From: Gluconacetobacter takamatsuzukensis
Lineage (GTDB): Bacteria; Pseudomonadota; Alphaproteobacteria; Acetobacterales; Acetobacteraceae
DNA: 64,000 nucleotides
Direction of reading: 5' to 3'
Assembly: GCF_014174275.1 (NCBI RefSeq)
Contig: NZ_JABEQK010000003.1
Location: forward strand, 310,001-374,000
The notes under the pieces were generated by a model, which searched no databases, was not told the origin of the DNA, and saw only the letters and a list, made by a program, of their open reading frames with translations. This document shows, piece by piece, positions 41,675 to 49,833 of the stretch (within the stretch, counting starts at the first letter, position 1; each line of letters starts with the position of its first letter). A program made the translations under genes and the position numbers.

Positions 41675-43114
41675 ATGGGAAGCCCGATCGAAACGCTGAT
41701 CCGCGAAACGGTGACCAGGGGCATCGAAGCCCTCGCCGCCCACAACCGCAAACGCATGCCCCGGCACGCCAACCCGTTCCTGACCGGCATCCATGCCCCG
41801 ATGACCGAGGAACGGACACTGACCGAACTCCCGGTCACGGGCACGATCCCCGCCGGGCTCAACGGACGCTACCTGCGCATCGGCCCCAACCCGATAGCGC
41901 CCGATCCGGCCTCCTATCACTGGTTCACCGGCGACGGCATGGTCCACGGGCTCGCAATCGCCGATGGCCGCGCATTGTGGTACCGCAATCGCTGGATCCG
42001 CTCGAACGCCGTCGCCAGGGCACGCGGCGTCGTCCCCGCACCGGGGCCACGCCACGTCTTCGATACGGTCAACACCAATGTCGTCGATATCGGCGGTCGC
42101 ACCTTCGCGCTGGTCGAGGCCGGCAGCTACCCGGTCGAACTGGGCGAAACGCTCGACGACCAGCGCTACAATCCGTTCGACGGCTCGCTGAAAGGCTCCT
42201 TCAGCGCACACCCCCACCGCGATCCGAAAACCGGAGAACAGCACGCGATCTGTTACGAGGGCCGCGATCCCGGCACCATCCGCCACGTCGTGGTCGACGC
42301 AGCCGGGCGCGTGATCCGCGAGGAACCGGTCGCGGTAAAGCACGGCCCGATGATCCATGATTGCGCGCTTACCGACCGTTTCGTCATCATCCTCGACCTG
42401 CCCGTGACATTTTCGATGAAGGCCCTGGTCGCAGGCCACGGCTTCCCCTATCGCTGGAACCCCGCACACCCGGCGCGCGTCGGGCTGCTGCCACGCCATG
42501 GCGGGCAGGACGACATCATCTGGTGCCCGGTGGCGCCCGGATACGCCTTCCATGTCGCCAACGCCCACGATGCGGACGACGGAAGCGTTATCCTCGATCT
42601 CTGTGTCTACGACACGATGTTCGGCGACGGCGCACAGGGCCCGGACGCAAGATCGCGCGGGCTTGAACGCTGGACCATCGACCCCGCCGGCCGCATGGTC
42701 GCCATCCGCACGCTCGACGCCGCACCGCAGGAATTCCCCCGCCCCGACGAACGCTTCTTCGGCCGCCCCTCCCGCCATGTCTGGAGCCTCGCCCTGCCGG
42801 CCGACCCGGCCAACCGCTTCATCGGCGCAACGGCGCTCTACGCGCACGACCTCGTAACAGGCGAACGGCAGGTCCACGATTTCGGCCCCAACCGCCACCC
42901 CGGCGAATTCGTCTTCGTGCCCGAGACCCCCGACAGCCCCGAAGGGCATGGCTGGCTGATCGGCTTCGTCATCGACATGGCGAGCGAAACGACCGACCTC
43001 GTCATCCTCGACGCCCGCCGGTTTTCCGAGCCGCCGGTCGCCGGCATCCGCCTGCCGCACCGCGTGCCGCCGGGCTTCCACGGCAACTGGATCGCCGGAG
43101 GCAGCACCCCATGA
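41675..43114 (+). CDS. Carotenoid cleavage oxygenase (RPE65/lignostilbene dioxygenase family)
   Basis: Non-heme Fe2+ dioxygenase that cleaves carotenoids, apocarotenoids or stilbene-type C=C bonds. All four iron-binding histidines are in place: [10 protein letters not shown] (His179), [10 protein letters not shown] (His228), [10 protein letters not shown] (His293) and PPGFHGNW (His469). Also present are [12 protein letters not shown] and [12 protein letters not shown] near the start. Length 479 is standard for bacterial members. ATG 41675 follows GGAGG. Its stop overlaps the next start (ATGA), so the operon is translationally coupled. Substrate cannot be told; no carotenoid biosynthesis genes are in the window. 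Confidence 0.93.
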
Positions 43115-43887
43115 ACAGCCTGCGCCCGCGCATCCCCGGCCTGGCACTCCTGGCACTCGACCTCGCGGTGAATTTCGCCGCCCCCGCGCTGATCTACGAC
43201 CGGATGCAGGCGGCTTGGGGCGATGTCGATGCACTTCTGGCCTCGTCCATGCCCCCGCTCCTGTGGAGCATCGGCGGCTTCCTGCGCAACCGGCGGGTCG
43301 ATGCGCTGTCCCTCCTTTCCCTGGCCGGCATCGCCCTCTCCCTGCTCGCCTTCCTGGGCGGCGGCTCCGCGCGGATGCTGGAACTGCGCGAGAAAATGGT
43401 CACCTTCCTGATCGGCCTGGCCTTCCTCGGCTCGGCGGCAATCGGCAAACCGCTGGTCGCCGCCCTGGCACGCGCAACCGTGGCCCGGGAATCCGCCCAG
43501 GCCCTCGCCGATTTCGACGCGCACCGCAACACCCCCGGCATGCGGCGCGCCATCATGGTCATGACACTGGTATGGGGCGCCGGCCTGCTGGCAGACGTGG
43601 CGGTCTCGGTCGTGCTCATCTACAGCCTGCCGATCGCCACCTATCTCGTGGTCGGCCCGATCCTCGGCTACGTCACGATGGGCGGGCTGGCACTCTGGAC
43701 CGTGGCCTATCGGCGCTACCGAATGCACTACCGCGCCCCAGGCCCCCCCCGGCCACGCACCAGGACCAGGTGGACCGACCGGAATCCTCGCCCGACCGGG
43801 ACATTTTTCAAACAGCATCTTAACGATTCGCTAATACTTGAAAGGGAGCCTGACAGACCCCCGTCCGCCACTGGAACCGCCCGATGA
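43111..43887 (+). CDS. VC0807-like integral membrane protein
   Basis: A 258-residue protein with six hydrophobic segments in the first ~210 residues, then a polar proline/arginine-rich tail. The start [19 protein letters not shown] and the [22 protein letters not shown] loop-helix match the VC0807 family of unknown function, often found beside transcription regulators or oxidoreductases. It overlaps the oxygenase stop by ATGA (43111) and the next gene's start by ATGA (43884). It may help deliver or retain a hydrophobic substrate for the oxygenase, but that is speculation. Confidence 0.8.
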
Positions 43888-45299
43888 TCAGGATCGACGC
43901 CATACAGCCGGACTCGGTCCCCATCTCCTTTCCCGGCGCCGAGAGCGACCGGCCGAAAGCCGGCGGCGCCTCGCCCAGCGGCGGCAACCGCTCCGGCAGC
44001 AACGCCGCAGCCCCCGGCGACGGCGATACCGTCACCCTGTCGGCGGAAGCCCTCGCCGCCCTGGCCGTCCTGTCGTCCGAGACGACGGAAGACCCGCAAG
44101 CCCTCCAGGACACTCCCCTGCCGCCCGAGATGCAACCGGCCGACGCCGAAGATGCCCCACCCGATCCGACGAACCAGATCCCCTCGGCCATCATCGACGC
44201 CGCGCAAGCCGACATGGAGGCTGCCGTTCTCACCATGGGCGCCAATGAAGGAATGCCCACCCCGGCCATCTGGGGCCGCGCCTACGAACGCACCCTGATG
44301 TCGGCCCCCGATCACGCCGCCCCAACCCCCGCTCAGACCAGAACCGCCCCCCCTCCCGGCCCGGGCCAAACGGATTCCGCAACCCCCGACACAGCGGAGA
44401 ACACGATCCTCGCGAACGATGTGGAAAGAGCCCTCACCGAACGCCTGCTCAACAGCGGACTGGATGACGATCCGGGCACCCACTTTCTGGCCGGTCGCCC
44501 CACCGACCACGCCGGCAACAGGCCCCAGACCGTTACCGACCCGATGGTGCCCGATCTCTCCCACGATCTGACCGGGTCGACCGATCCCGAATCCATCGCC
44601 CAGAACGTCCAGAATCTCCCCCAGGTCGATGAACGGATGGTCGCGATGTATGCCCCTCCCATGGGCAACCGCCCAATCCGGGAGCCCGCACCGGAGATCG
44701 ACGACACCGACCCACCGCCGGAACCCACCGGCCGGGTCACGGGTGCCCTTCTCGACGCGGTCGCCGCATGGCAGGGGCGCCGGCTGAACGCGCTCTATCC
44801 CGTGATCTTCTTCGACACGCTACAGGTCAAGGTCCGCGACGACAGCATCGTCCGCGACAAGCCCGTGCACGTCGTGCGCGGGATGCACCTCGACGGCACC
44901 ATGGACATGCTCGGCCTGTGGCTCGAACGGCACCAGACTACCGGCTTCGGGCGCCATATCATGGATGCGCTGAAGCGCCGGGGCATGGAAGATATCCTGA
45001 TGGCCGTTGCCGAGGGGGCAGACGGCATTCCCGCCGCCATCCACGCGGCCTTCCCCCAGGCGCTGGTCCATCCTTCGATCGCGCACCTGCTGCATCATCT
45101 GCCAAACGTCATGGCCGTGACCGACCGCGTCGCCATGGCCGACAGCCCATGGGGCCAGATGCTCCAATCGGCCGCCCATACGATCGCTGCGTCGAATGCG
45201 ATGCTCGGCCGCGCCATCCAGGCCCGAGGCTATTTCGCCAACGACCAGGCCGCGCTGGCCTTTCTCTACCTGACCTTGAACAGCGCCCGGGCGTCCTGA
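43884..45299 (+). CDS. Degenerate IS256/Mutator transposase-derived protein with novel N-terminal region
   Basis: A 471-residue intact reading frame. Residues 1-175 are Pro/Ala/Asp-rich and unrecognised (with VTLSAEALAALA near 51). From about residue 178 to the end it follows an IS256-family transposase: VERALTERLL, DHAGNRPQTVTD, a VDERMVAMYAPPM segment (248-260), VTGALLDAVAAWQ (285-297), LYPVIFFDTLQVKVRD (first catalytic Asp, 311), LGLWLERHQ, ILMAVAEGADG (family Asp replaced by Glu377), and the C-terminal RAIQARGYFANDQAALAFLYL. The ~100-residue insertion domain is missing and the catalytic Glu region (TTNAIEALN in active enzymes) is degenerate (AASNAML). It should be transposition-dead but conserved as a protein. 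It is coupled to the upstream membrane protein by ATGA. Confidence 0.75.
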   Translation: MIRIDAIQPDSVPISFPGAESDRPKAGGASPSGGNRSGSNAAAPGDGDTVTLSAEALAALAVLSSETTEDPQALQDTPLPPEMQPADAEDAPPDPTNQIPSAIIDAAQADMEAAVLTMGANEGMPTPAIWGRAYERTLMSAPDHAAPTPAQTRTAPPPGPGQTDSATPDTAENTILANDVERALTERLLNSGLDDDPGTHFLAGRPTDHAGNRPQTVTDPMVPDLSHDLTGSTDPESIAQNVQNLPQVDERMVAMYAPPMGNRPIREPAPEIDDTDPPPEPTGRVTGALLDAVAAWQGRRLNALYPVIFFDTLQVKVRDDSIVRDKPVHVVRGMHLDGTMDMLGLWLERHQTTGFGRHIMDALKRRGMEDILMAVAEGADGIPAAIHAAFPQALVHPSIAHLLHHLPNVMAVTDRVAMADSPWGQMLQSAAHTIAASNAMLGRAIQARGYFANDQAALAFLYLTLNSARAS

Positions 45300-45411: not shown

Positions 45412-45549
45412 TTACATGCGCACCAGGGCCAGACCGTAGAACACGGCTGCCAGACCCAGCAGCGTAAAGGCCACACCAAGCAGCCGGCCACGATGGCGGC
45501 GCACGCATTCGCGGGCCTGGTCGGGCGTCAGGGCAAGCGGTTGATCCAT
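45412..45549 (-). CDS. CoxF-like small membrane protein, 45 aa
   Basis: A 45-codon gene with a strong ribosome site (GAGGAGG six bases before ATG 45549) overlapping the ctaB stop. The protein is a polar N-terminus (ALTPDQARECVRRHRGR) followed by one transmembrane helix (LLGVAFTLLGLAAVFYGLALV). A single-pass protein directly after ctaB matches the CoxF type that accompanies oxidase assembly genes in other alphaproteobacteria. The open frame extends upstream within ctaB but lacks coding character there. Confidence 0.75.
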   Translation of the reverse strand: MDQPLALTPDQARECVRRHRGRLLGVAFTLLGLAAVFYGLALVRM

Positions 45550-45560
45550 CACCGGCCTCC

Positions 45561-46505
45561 TCAGCCCATGACCAGGAAATGATCGGCCAGCAGGCCGCAG
45601 AACAGCAGGAACAGATAAAGCAGCGAGAAGCGGAACGCCCGCCGCGCCGCGCCATCGCCCGTCAGGCTCACGCCGGTCGCATCCTGCCGGTCCCTCAGCA
45701 CGCGCACGGCACAGCCCACGAAGCCGGCATCCAGCAGCATCGCGGTGGCGGAATACAGCCAGCCCGCCTGATGCAGCACCGACGGCACCAGCGATACCGC
45801 CGAGAGGATCAGCGTATAGATCAGGATCTGCCAGCGCGTATGCCGTGCCCCGCGCACCACCGGCAGCATCGGAATCCCGGCCCGCCCGTAATCCTTGCAG
45901 GCATATAGCGACAGCGACCAGAAATGCGGCGGCGTCCACAGGAACACGATCGCGAACATCACGACGGGCATCACATCCAGCGATCCCGTCGCCGCCGCCC
46001 AACCGATCATGGGCGGAAAGGCCCCGGCCGCCCCACCGATCACGATGTTCTGCGGCGTCGAGCGCTTCAGCCACATCGTATAGATCACGGCATAGAAGAA
46101 GATGGAAAAGGCCAGGATAAACGCCGCCAGCGCATTGGTCGCCAGCCACATCAGCAGCACCGAGGCCGTCGACAGGCCGATGCCGAACCCCAGCGCCTGA
46201 TCCTGGCGAATCCGCCCATCGGGGATCGGGCGGCGCGCGGTCCGGGTCATGATCGCGTCGATATCGCGATCGTACCACATGTTGATCGCCCCCGCCGCAC
46301 CCGACGCCATGCAGATGCACAGGATGGCAACGCACGCCACCACCGGGTTCAGGTGGCCCGGCGCCATGGCCATGCCGGCCGCACCGGTAAACACTACCAG
46401 CGAAATCACGCGCGGCTTCAGCAGCGCGAACCAGTCACGGGCCTCGGTCCCGACCAGCGCCGCGTCGAAACGCGGCGCCTCCGGTGCGGCGGCGCGGGCG
46501 CTCAT
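45561..46505 (-). CDS. ctaB: Protoheme IX farnesyltransferase (heme O synthase)
   Basis: Integral membrane prenyltransferase that adds a hydroxyethylfarnesyl group to heme B, producing heme O for terminal oxidases. The UbiA-fold active-site motif is clear in NMWYDRDIDAIMTRTARRP (Asp-rich, about residues 75-93) after the LKPRVISLVVFTGAAGM helix, and a second Asp-rich region follows the IPMLPVVRGARHTR loop. Length 314 is typical. Its ATG (46505) overlaps the stop of the oxidase-like gene upstream (ATGA), and a CoxF-like gene follows. The same product would be needed for cytochrome bo3-type ubiquinol oxidase encoded elsewhere. Confidence 0.95.
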   Translation of the reverse strand: MSARAAAPEAPRFDAALVGTEARDWFALLKPRVISLVVFTGAAGMAMAPGHLNPVVACVAILCICMASGAAGAINMWYDRDIDAIMTRTARRPIPDGRIRQDQALGFGIGLSTASVLLMWLATNALAAFILAFSIFFYAVIYTMWLKRSTPQNIVIGGAAGAFPPMIGWAAATGSLDVMPVVMFAIVFLWTPPHFWSLSLYACKDYGRAGIPMLPVVRGARHTRWQILIYTLILSAVSLVPSVLHQAGWLYSATAMLLDAGFVGCAVRVLRDRQDATGVSLTGDGAARRAFRFSLLYLFLLFCGLLADHFLVMG

Positions 46506-47839
46506 GCCCCGGCTCCCCCCACCATGAAGCCGGCGAAGGAATCACGCGGCGCGGGCGACGGCAACGTCCATTCCAGGGTGCGGGCCCCCGCCCCCCAGTA
46601 ATTGCCGGTAACGCGATGCCGCCCCAGCAGCGCCACGGCCAGCACGGCGACGAAGGCCACCATCGACAGGCCCTGCATCGCCACCCCGGCCAGCACGCCG
46701 CCGGGCAGCAGGCCTACGACACTGCCGCCGACCGCCAGCGCCACATGCAGGCGCCCCGCCCATTCTGGATAGGCTCCGCCGGCCATCTTGCCGATCCAGT
46801 AATAGAACCCGCCGAACGCGGCGAACAGCGCGGCAGGCAGCACCAGCGCATGCGCGTCGGCCCCACCACCCGCCAGCGTCTGCACGGGGGCCGCAATCAG
46901 CATCGCCATGAAGGCGACGGCCCACAGCATCGGCACCCGAAAGACCGGCCGACCGGCCATCAGCGTCCTGCCCCAGGCCGCCAGCAGCACCAGCATCGGC
47001 AGCGCCATCACGGCCTGCTCGGCCAGCGGCCGCGCGGCAGGCTGCGCCGCCAGACCGATGGCAAACAGATCATGCACCCACACCGACGCCCCGCCGACCG
47101 ACAGCACGACCATTGCCCCAAGCGCCGCGCCACGCAGGCGCAGCGCCACGCCCGAGAAAGTCTCAACCAGCTGGCAGATCACCCCGGCGGCCGGCAGCAG
47201 CAGCAGCCCCGCTTCGGGGCCCGAGAACGCGCGCAACGCCCGCGCCACCACATCGGTGCCCGCCCCGGCCAGCAGGCCGCGCGTTAGCGCCGCCGCCAGC
47301 ACCGGCAGCACGATCACCATCATCATCGCGGTCAGGACCTGCGCCCAGACGAACAGCGGCATGGCCCCCAGCCCGACGCCACGTCCACGCATGTTCAGCG
47401 CGGTGGCGACGATATTGATCGCCAGCCCCAGCATCGCCGCACACCACAGCATCATCGCGCCCGCCGTCGACACCCCGGCGACGACCAGCCCGAAGCTGGC
47501 GGCAACACCGGCCCAGCACGCCAGGTTCAGGCGACGGAACGCCATGTCGGGCGCACCCAGCAGCAGCGGCACGAACCACGAGCCGAACCCGCCGACCAGC
47601 GCCGGCAGGGCGCAGAACAGCACCATAAGCGCGCCATGGTCGATCGCCATCCGGCCCCACGCGGCGCTGGCATCCGGCCCGATACGCAGCGGCAGGGCCA
47701 GCCCGCCGCCGATCAGCCCGGCCAGGACCGCCATGACCAGATAGAGCGTCCCGACCGCCTTGTGGCCGCTCAGGCCGCCGCTCCGCGTCAGGAAGCCCCC
47801 GGTTGCGACATCCATCCGGACCTGCCTCTCTGCCGGCAT
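46502..47839 (-). CDS. Oxidase subunit I-like protein lacking the CuB/heme a3 site
   Basis: 445 residues with clear colinear homology to cytochrome c oxidase subunit I: SGHKAVGTLYLV, MAIDHGALMVLF, GGFGSWFVPLLLGAPDMAF, PMLWA, GGFYYWIGKMAGGAYPEWAG and the ending TLEWTLPSPAP. By alignment to Paracoccus CtaD (from memory), the low-spin heme a ligands His94 and His413 are kept (His68, His330), but CuB His276 is Gly207, CuB His326 is Asp257, heme a3 His411 is Asp328, Tyr280 is Gly211 and the K-channel Lys354 is Leu285; only CuB His325 (His256) remains. It therefore cannot make a normal O2-reducing site. ATG 47839 has GGAG nine bases upstream. Its stop overlaps the ctaB start. No subunit II or III gene is adjacent. 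Confidence 0.85.
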   Translation of the reverse strand: MPAERQVRMDVATGGFLTRSGGLSGHKAVGTLYLVMAVLAGLIGGGLALPLRIGPDASAAWGRMAIDHGALMVLFCALPALVGGFGSWFVPLLLGAPDMAFRRLNLACWAGVAASFGLVVAGVSTAGAMMLWCAAMLGLAINIVATALNMRGRGVGLGAMPLFVWAQVLTAMMMVIVLPVLAAALTRGLLAGAGTDVVARALRAFSGPEAGLLLLPAAGVICQLVETFSGVALRLRGAALGAMVVLSVGGASVWVHDLFAIGLAAQPAARPLAEQAVMALPMLVLLAAWGRTLMAGRPVFRVPMLWAVAFMAMLIAAPVQTLAGGGADAHALVLPAALFAAFGGFYYWIGKMAGGAYPEWAGRLHVALAVGGSVVGLLPGGVLAGVAMQGLSMVAFVAVLAVALLGRHRVTGNYWGAGARTLEWTLPSPAPRDSFAGFMVGGAGA

Positions 47840-47949
47840 ACGCCACTTCTCCTGCGCCGATGGGCCGCCGGAGGGCGACCGTGCTCGAAATCGTGATGAT
47901 GTTACCGAAACCAGCCCGCCAAGACGAGAGCCCGCAGCCCCCGCCTCCA

Positions 47950-47991: not shown

Positions 47992-48723
47992 TCAGGCGGC
48001 AGGCTTCTCCACCCGGCTCGCAACGGCAAGGCGCGGCAGCGTCACCAGCGTGAACAGCCCCGCCGGCGGCACCGGCTGGATGGTCGCGCGGGCCAGGTCG
48101 TCGGGCGGCAGCAGGGCTTCCATCGCGAAGTCCGGATGCCAGCCCAGCGAATGCGACGCCCGCGCCATGCCGCGCTCGACCGCCAGCCGCACGCCGCCGG
48201 TGGCCAGGAAGTGATTGACGAACAGGATATGCCCGCCCGGCCGCACCACGCGCTTCAGTTCCGCCAGCAGCCGGCGCGGATTGGGCACGACGGAGGCCAC
48301 GAACATCGCCACCGCGATATCGAAGGACGCATCCGCAAACCGCGTATCCTCGGCATCCATTTCCAGCAGGGCATCGATATTGCGCAGGTTCATCCGCGCC
48401 ACACGCTGGCGCGCGCGGTCCAGCATGTCGCCCGAAAGGTCGATGCCGGTAATGCGCTTGTCGGCGCGATAATGCGGCAGGGCCAGGCCGGTGCCCACGC
48501 CCACTTCCAGCACCGCCGTGCCGGGCAGGCCGTTCACGGCGGCGACCGCCCGCTTGCGTCCGAAGGCCGAAACCCCACCGAACACCGTGTCGTAGACACC
48601 GGCCCACCGGCGATAGGCTGCCTTGACGGCGTCGGCGTCCAGGGCCGAACGCGGTACCGGCGCACAGGCCAGGCTGGCGGCGGCATCCGCCTCGGCAGGC
48701 GCGTCTTGAAGAACGTTGCTCAT
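47992..48723 (-). CDS. pmtA: Phosphatidylethanolamine N-methyltransferase-like SAM methyltransferase
   Basis: Class I SAM methyltransferase of the Rhodobacter-type PmtA group, which methylates phosphatidylethanolamine stepwise to phosphatidylcholine. SAM-binding motif VLEVGVGTGLALPHY is at about residues 62-76, with ITGIDLSGDMLDRA and the PmtA-typical FVASVVPNPRRLLAELKRVVRPGG. The N-terminal YRRWAGVYDTVFGG helix is also characteristic. Length 243 from ATG 48723 fits; a longer in-frame start at 48777 is less likely. It is the first gene upstream of the oxidase-like/ctaB unit on the same strand but is separated by a hairpin. A UbiE-like quinone methyltransferase is the main alternative. Confidence 0.85.
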   Translation of the reverse strand: MSNVLQDAPAEADAAASLACAPVPRSALDADAVKAAYRRWAGVYDTVFGGVSAFGRKRAVAAVNGLPGTAVLEVGVGTGLALPHYRADKRITGIDLSGDMLDRARQRVARMNLRNIDALLEMDAEDTRFADASFDIAVAMFVASVVPNPRRLLAELKRVVRPGGHILFVNHFLATGGVRLAVERGMARASHSLGWHPDFAMEALLPPDDLARATIQPVPPAGLFTLVTLPRLAVASRVEKPAA

Positions 48724-48837: not shown

Positions 48838-49833
48838 TTACACGCCACCGTCGAGCCGCCGCAGGATGCAGTCCCAGATCAGCCCGGCGGAATTGATGCC
48901 GTCGAAACGGTCGATTTCCTGCAACCCTGTCGGCGACGTGACATTGATCTCCGTCAGCCAGTCGCCGATCACGTCGATCCCCACGAAGATCAGGCCCTTC
49001 TCGCGCAGCATCGGCCCGATCGCCTCGCAGATCTCGCGGTCGCGCGGGCTCAGCTCGACCTTCACCGCGCGGCCGCCCACATGCATGTTCGACCGCGCCT
49101 CGCCCTGCGCCGGCACGCGGTTGATCGCGCCGATCGGCACGCCGTCGGCCAGGATGATGCGCTTGTCCCCCTGGCGCACCGCCGGCTCGTAGCGCTGGAT
49201 CATCAGCGGCTCGCGCGAACGCGCGAAATGCATCTCCAGCAGCGAATTCAGGTTCTCGTCATCCTCGCGGATACGAAACACCCCCGCCCCGCCATTGCCG
49301 AACAGTGGCTTGACGATAATGTCCCGCCACTCGGCGCGGAAATCACGGATCGCCAGCACATCCCACGTCACCAGCGTCGGCGGCATCAGCTCGGGAAAAT
49401 GCGTGACCAGCAGCTTCTCGGGCGCATTGCGCACCGATTCCGGGTCGTTGACCACCAGTGCCCTGCCCGGCCCGGTGCCGTGCACATGCTCCAGCATGTG
49501 GGTGGCGCTGATATACGCCATGTCGAAGGGCGGGTCCTGGCGCATCAGGATCACATCCATCGCGGACAGGTCGATCACCTGCTCCGCGCCCAGCTCGGCA
49601 TGGTCGCCCGCGACCCGCCGCACCCGCGCCGGGCGCGCGCGCGCCGTCAGCCGTTGGGCCCGCGCGCCCTCGGCCACGCGCCCCTCGCGCAGGCTCAGCC
49701 CCTGCACCTGGTAGACGAACAGGTCGTACCCCCGCGCCTGCGCTTCCAGCATCAGGGCAAAAGTCGAATCGCCGTTGATGTCCACCCCCGACAGGGGGTC
49801 CATCTGCACGGCAACCTTCAGCGAGCGGGACAT
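48838..49833 (-). CDS. gshB: Glutathione synthetase
   Basis: ATP-grasp enzyme joining gamma-glutamylcysteine and glycine to make glutathione. The N-terminal [20 protein letters not shown] and [12 protein letters not shown] are hallmark GshB segments, followed by [17 protein letters not shown] (ATP-grasp loop) and [21 protein letters not shown] (metal and ATP ligands). Length 331. ATG 49833 has GGAGG eight bases before it; a longer in-frame start is not needed. A short inverted repeat TGACA/TGTCA (49868-49882) sits upstream. The gene downstream on the same strand is pmtA, 114 bp away. Confidence 0.96.

Follow-up and report, generated by a model that had tools for sequence, protein, structure and literature searches.

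A cytochrome oxidase subunit I homologue beside ctaB in acetous Acetobacteraceae: loss of the binuclear centre and retention of the low-spin heme ligands

What is a cytochrome oxidase subunit I kept for once its O2-reducing centre has been lost? The question is raised by a gene directly upstream of ctaB in a 64,000 nucleotide stretch of Gluconacetobacter takamatsuzukensis DNA (the window; all positions are within it). The gene itself is already known. A 'deranged COX1-like protein' encoded beside ctaB in Acetobacter was described by Degli Esposti et al. 2023 (PMC10715153), citing Matsutani et al. 2014, and the passages of that paper that deal with it describe it as lacking all conserved cofactor-binding residues. 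In A. pasteurianus SKU1108, ctaD (APT_01775) and ctaB (APT_01774) are listed as neighbours (PMC5158111), and ctaB and ctaA have been called functional remnants of a COX cluster (PMC6915089). No experiment on the COX1-like protein was found in the literature.

The COX1-like gene and its surroundings

The locus has the following features.

45412..45549, minus strand: 45-aa protein with a single helix; its homologue in intact COX operons is the short ORF that follows ctaB, and acetous genera keep it together with the COX1-like gene
45561..46505, minus strand: ctaB, coding for a heme O synthase of 314 aa; its start overlaps the stop codon of the COX1-like gene by ATGA (TIGR01473, 333 bits; cut-off 210.3)
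46502..47839, minus strand: COX1-like gene, 445 aa, without a binuclear centre and with the low-spin heme ligand pair kept (Pfam, phmmer, AlphaFold2)
46850..46852, minus strand: His330 codon; the residue aligns with Paracoccus His413, a ligand of the low-spin heme, and is unchanged in 66/66 deranged homologues
47636..47638, minus strand: His68 codon; the residue aligns with Paracoccus His94, the other ligand of the low-spin heme, and is unchanged in 66/66 deranged homologues
47849..47853, minus strand: AGGAG, read from the sequence and probably the ribosome-binding site for the COX1-like gene
47992..48720, minus strand: PmtA-like methyltransferase; its counterpart in the COX operon of an intact relative lies upstream of ctaC
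48838..49785, minus strand: gshB (glutathione synthase), a conserved gene flanking the locus upstream (NF003573, 420.7 bits)

The COX1-like CDS begins with an ATG at 47839 and extends, stop codon included, to 46502 without an internal stop; AGGAG is positioned 9 nt before the ATG, and the TGA overlaps the ATG of ctaB. A preliminary description had reported this clean frame, the ribosome site and the ATGA coupling, and every detail of its account of the gene stands except the strand, which is minus. The plus-strand reading of 46502-47839 contains a stop and was rejected as a gene.

The homology with subunit I claimed in that description is confirmed by Pfam COX1 (PF00115; 9.6e-39, 133.9 bits against a cut-off of 34.8), the sole Pfam match, with none to COX15-CtaA, and by phmmer against chain A of Paracoccus 1ar1 (2.9e-49). 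The AlphaFold2 model, built with 36 homologues, has a pLDDT of 83.6, a pTM of 0.87 and 12 long helices, the second containing H68 and the tenth H330; its best match in the PDB is an aa3 oxidase subunit I, that of Paracoccus (TM 0.81 over the query). By PF00115 homology and 12-helix fold, the protein belongs to the subunit I family of the heme-copper oxidase superfamily. An orthologue with 70% identity is encoded by Gluconacetobacter diazotrophicus PA1 5 (NC_011365.1).

Two ORFs elsewhere in the window also deserve mention. A 471-aa ORF at 43884-45296 (plus strand), which has no counterpart at the G. diazotrophicus locus, resembles Mutator/IS256 transposases in their catalytic part over residues 228-410 (1.1e-31), scores below the IS256 equivalog cut-off and has ~220 unrelated, disordered-looking residues preceding the match; it is possibly a domesticated or chimeric transposase. 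A 479-aa ORF at 41675-43114 (plus strand) resembles, by eye, a carotenoid oxygenase.

Residues kept and lost, and selection on the gene

When aligned by phmmer with Paracoccus 1ar1, the low-spin heme ligands H94 and H413 correspond to H68 and H330, the CuB ligands H276 and H326 to G207 and D257, with H325 alone kept (as H256), the heme a3 ligand H411 to D328, the cross-linked Y280 to G211 and the K-channel K354 to L285, a list identical, residue by residue, to that of the preliminary description. The protein resembles the A-type CtaD of Paracoccus (1ar1) in fold, 12 transmembrane helices, low-spin ligand pair and operon position before ctaB, but differs from it in lacking the CuB ligand set, heme a3 ligand, cross-linked Tyr, K-channel Lys and propionate Arg pair, and it scores far below the cut-off of the NCBIfam CtaD equivalog (TIGR02891, 159.7 against 670.75 bits).

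The same pattern is found in 66 homologues from 20 acetous genera, among which pairwise identity falls to 18%. Only H68, W165, W254 and H330 are invariant in all 66; 244 columns are invariant in 12 intact A-type subunits, only these four remain so across the deranged homologues, and two of the four are the low-spin ligands (hypergeometric 2e-4). Thirteen of the columns invariant in intact subunits are His, and the only ones fully conserved in the deranged set are again the low-spin pair; the third-best conserved, H325, is present in 47% and alone cannot form CuB. H411 is found in 2 of the 66, a Tyr is never seen at the Y280 position, and no member of the clade keeps the CuB or heme a3 ligands as a set, so that the loss of the O2-reducing centre suggested for this one protein is fixed in its relatives throughout the clade. 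Retention of the low-spin pair thus exceeds chance. All deranged homologues lack K354 and the propionate Arg pair R473/R474, most lack R54, and no proton-channel residues are conserved. With these Arg residues gone, any heme would occupy an altered pocket.

The protein published as deranged in Acetobacter is of the same family, has the same position upstream of ctaB and has lost the same O2-reducing centre. It differs as published, with all ligands lacking, from what is documented here, namely retention of both low-spin ligands in 66 of 66 sequences. A further addition is that the small protein encoded downstream is retained alongside the COX1-like protein.

The gene is not a pseudogene. The reading frame is open in all 66 homologues, with no internal frameshift or stop in any clade relative; apparent in-frame stops in two genomes (G062 and G067) result from matches that overrun the true stop, and another sequence taken as deranged (G075) is in fact an intact COX1 on a cut contig. 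Between close relatives, dN/dS is 0.12-0.23, as compared with 0.03-0.09 for ctaB, showing purifying selection that is about three times weaker than on ctaB, in agreement with the preliminary description, which had considered the gene to be under selection. In an IQ-TREE phylogeny, the 38 deranged sequences included, a subset of the 66, form one side of a 100/100 branch, documenting a single origin and one loss of the catalytic centre, with long branches and an unsure internal order; branch lengths within the subset sum to ~35 substitutions per site. The most divergent member, which has no Pfam match, is still modelled confidently by AlphaFold with a COX1 fold (pLDDT 89.9). In one genus (g80; L219, L228, L232, L233 and L103) some COX1-like proteins are easily recognised as such and others hardly at all, which would make this genus useful for tracing the course of derangement.

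Linkage to ctaB, the ancestral operon and the heme available

Homologues upstream of ctaB were found in 20 genera, all in the same family as the host. In every acetous genome whose contig permits the check, the COX1-like frame is directly upstream of the sole ctaB, separated from it by a few nt at most and usually overlapping it by ATGA or GTGA, and the ctaB in the window is the only heme O synthase gene above the family cut-off in the host genome. The five sampled genomes that have no ctaB (G066, G102, G106, G152 and G244) also have no COX1-like gene. Two seeming exceptions (G020 and G068) were discounted, as each has a normal small ORF, ctaG and ctaE after ctaB and a contig break upstream. 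A scan of the genome contigs gave, besides a majority of intact COX1, just one additional Gluconacetobacter record and two from Komagataeibacter. The small protein after ctaB, 35-50 aa with one predicted helix, is conserved in intact COX operons and the acetous clade alike; the 45-aa protein of the window has no Pfam or NCBIfam match. Linkage of the COX1-like gene to ctaB is strict, and the small protein is retained jointly with it.

The intact COX operon of a relative (L124) has the order PmtA-like methyltransferase, ctaC, ctaD, ctaB, small ORF, ctaG and ctaE. Relative to this operon, the window retains the methyltransferase, the ctaD-like gene, ctaB and the small ORF and has lost the rest; ctaC, ctaG and ctaE, recognised by their sequences around the intact L124 gene, are absent from the locus. 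The adjacent methyltransferase thus identifies the locus as a shrunken remnant of a COX operon. The gene order at gshB is the same in G. diazotrophicus (L128). ATGA coupling to ctaB is likewise present in the intact operon, and the close coupling is therefore ancestral.

One further genome (G014, locus L122) has only gshB, the methyltransferase and ctaB, the COX operon having been cleanly deleted with neither COX1 nor the small ORF left. Its CtaB falls outside the acetous clade in the CtaB tree, of which two rows (L105 and L121) are artefactually short, and this excludes a loss inside the clade and identifies an independent loss of the COX operon. The lineage is thereby a natural contrast to the acetous relic. 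As ctaB is kept there with no COX1 relic, retention of the gene in acetous bacteria is not a passive by-product of keeping ctaB.

The search for an intact ctaD or cyoB proposed in the preliminary description was successful. Besides the COX1-like gene, the 3.78 Mb host genome encodes three COX1-family members whose ligand motifs are intact: one of CyoB type, an A2-type CtaD and a more distant one. The last (G000:C1:157608-158942) has TGHPIVY, HHQ and GHFH motifs and is remote from both CtaD and CyoB, which suggests a B-type or otherwise unusual oxidase. The host also has one CtaA, separate and intact. Of the 20 genera with the COX1-like gene, however, only 8 have CtaA/Cox15 and 12 do not, and in these 12 the gene and its two ligands are just as well conserved. 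If a heme is bound, the site must then accept heme b or o and cannot rely on a supply of heme A. This distribution fits heme b or heme O at the bis-His site and does not fit the heme a proposed in the preliminary description, which is the chief correction to that description. That the COX1-like protein substitutes for a missing CtaA was ruled out, as the host has CtaA and many carriers have none.

Possible functions of the retained subunit

We propose, with a probability of about 0.5 for the reading as a whole, that the COX1-like protein, left over from a COX operon since lost, has been retained as a low-spin heme protein with bis-His ligation that works with CtaB. The gene would have originated as subunit I of an ancestral aa3 cytochrome c oxidase operon, from which the acetous ancestor presumably dropped ctaC, ctaG, ctaE and surf1, with the CuB/heme a3 centre of subunit I lost once. 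The remaining 12-helix membrane protein would bind one low-spin heme, b or o, with His68 and His330 as its ligands and would be co-translated with CtaB and the 45-aa single-helix protein. As a membrane heme site alongside CtaB, it could receive, hold or pass heme O, or present heme b, to a bo3/ba3 quinol oxidase, and by that role would stabilise CtaB. Judged from the conserved ligands, the protein probably binds one bis-His heme. Whether its functional partner is CtaB, or heme O traffic, is close to an even call: the strict linkage to ctaB counts in favour of a role as CtaB acceptor, holder or stabiliser, and against it stand the function of CtaB without a COX1-like protein in E. coli and in G014, the ancestral nature of the close gene coupling and a constraint weaker than that on ctaB. 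More tentatively, the dead subunit might be a dedicated acceptor or carrier of heme O (or heme b), with CtaB, the bis-His protein and the 45-aa helix acting as one module in capturing prenylated heme and handing it to quinol oxidase.

CtaA/Cox15, the heme A synthase, is a membrane partner of heme O synthase with a His-ligated heme. The COX1-like protein as proposed here would resemble it in this respect, but has no sequence match to it. A heme-holding membrane partner of heme synthases is plausible, given that bacterial heme O and heme A synthases have been reported as a complex (PMC13213658) and that heme insertion into subunit I is described as unresolved (PMC5249081).

The strict linkage and coupling to ctaB would also be expected of a scaffold that stabilises CtaB, the structural role suggested in PMC10715153, and that binds no heme or binds one only as a folding aid. 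Cox1 needs hemes for stable folding (PMC13213658), so that the heme could be a pure folding element, and loss of the propionate Arg residues also fits such a protein. We nevertheless consider this rather unlikely, since a scaffold gives no reason to keep just two low-spin His and almost nothing else over 66 sequences, and CtaB needs no scaffold in G014 or E. coli. Ongoing decay, with a pseudogene in progress being kept since its translation couples to ctaB, would account for the coupling as well, and for the lost catalytic residues, fast evolution and weaker constraint than on ctaB, but is already contradicted by the intact frames in all 20 genera, the dN/dS values, the two invariant His and two invariant Trp, and the fold preserved in the most divergent member.

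The bis-His site kept within a 12-helix respiratory fold is also what a membrane cytochrome for electron transfer might have, for example one passing electrons from quinol to a periplasmic or assembly redox partner, a function named in the preliminary description. This is improbable and found no positive support: by comparison with L124, no subunit II/CuA gene adjoins the COX1-like gene, the proton-channel residues are gone, no redox partner gene is linked, and the gene is present with and without CtaA, across very different respiratory chains. A function specific to heme A, in binding heme a or in heme A formation, is more improbable still. In aa3 oxidase the retained ligands hold heme a, and CtaA is present in the host and in 8 of the 20 genera, but the 12 genera without it have the gene nonetheless, and in the host a separate CtaA already exists. 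In Paracoccus, R54 hydrogen-bonds the heme a formyl; its loss in most homologues also argues against a heme A function.

In the literature covered, which did not extend to Matsutani et al. 2014, universal retention of the low-spin pair, joint retention of the small protein and independence from heme A were not found. The invariant low-spin pair corrects the published description in which all ligands were lost, and indicates that a catalytic subunit is reducible to one cofactor site across a whole bacterial clade. If the dead subunit is kept solely for its low-spin site beside the only heme O synthase gene, it would provide a natural, separable heme-acceptor partner with which the passage of heme O and heme A from their synthases to oxidases may be isolated and assayed.
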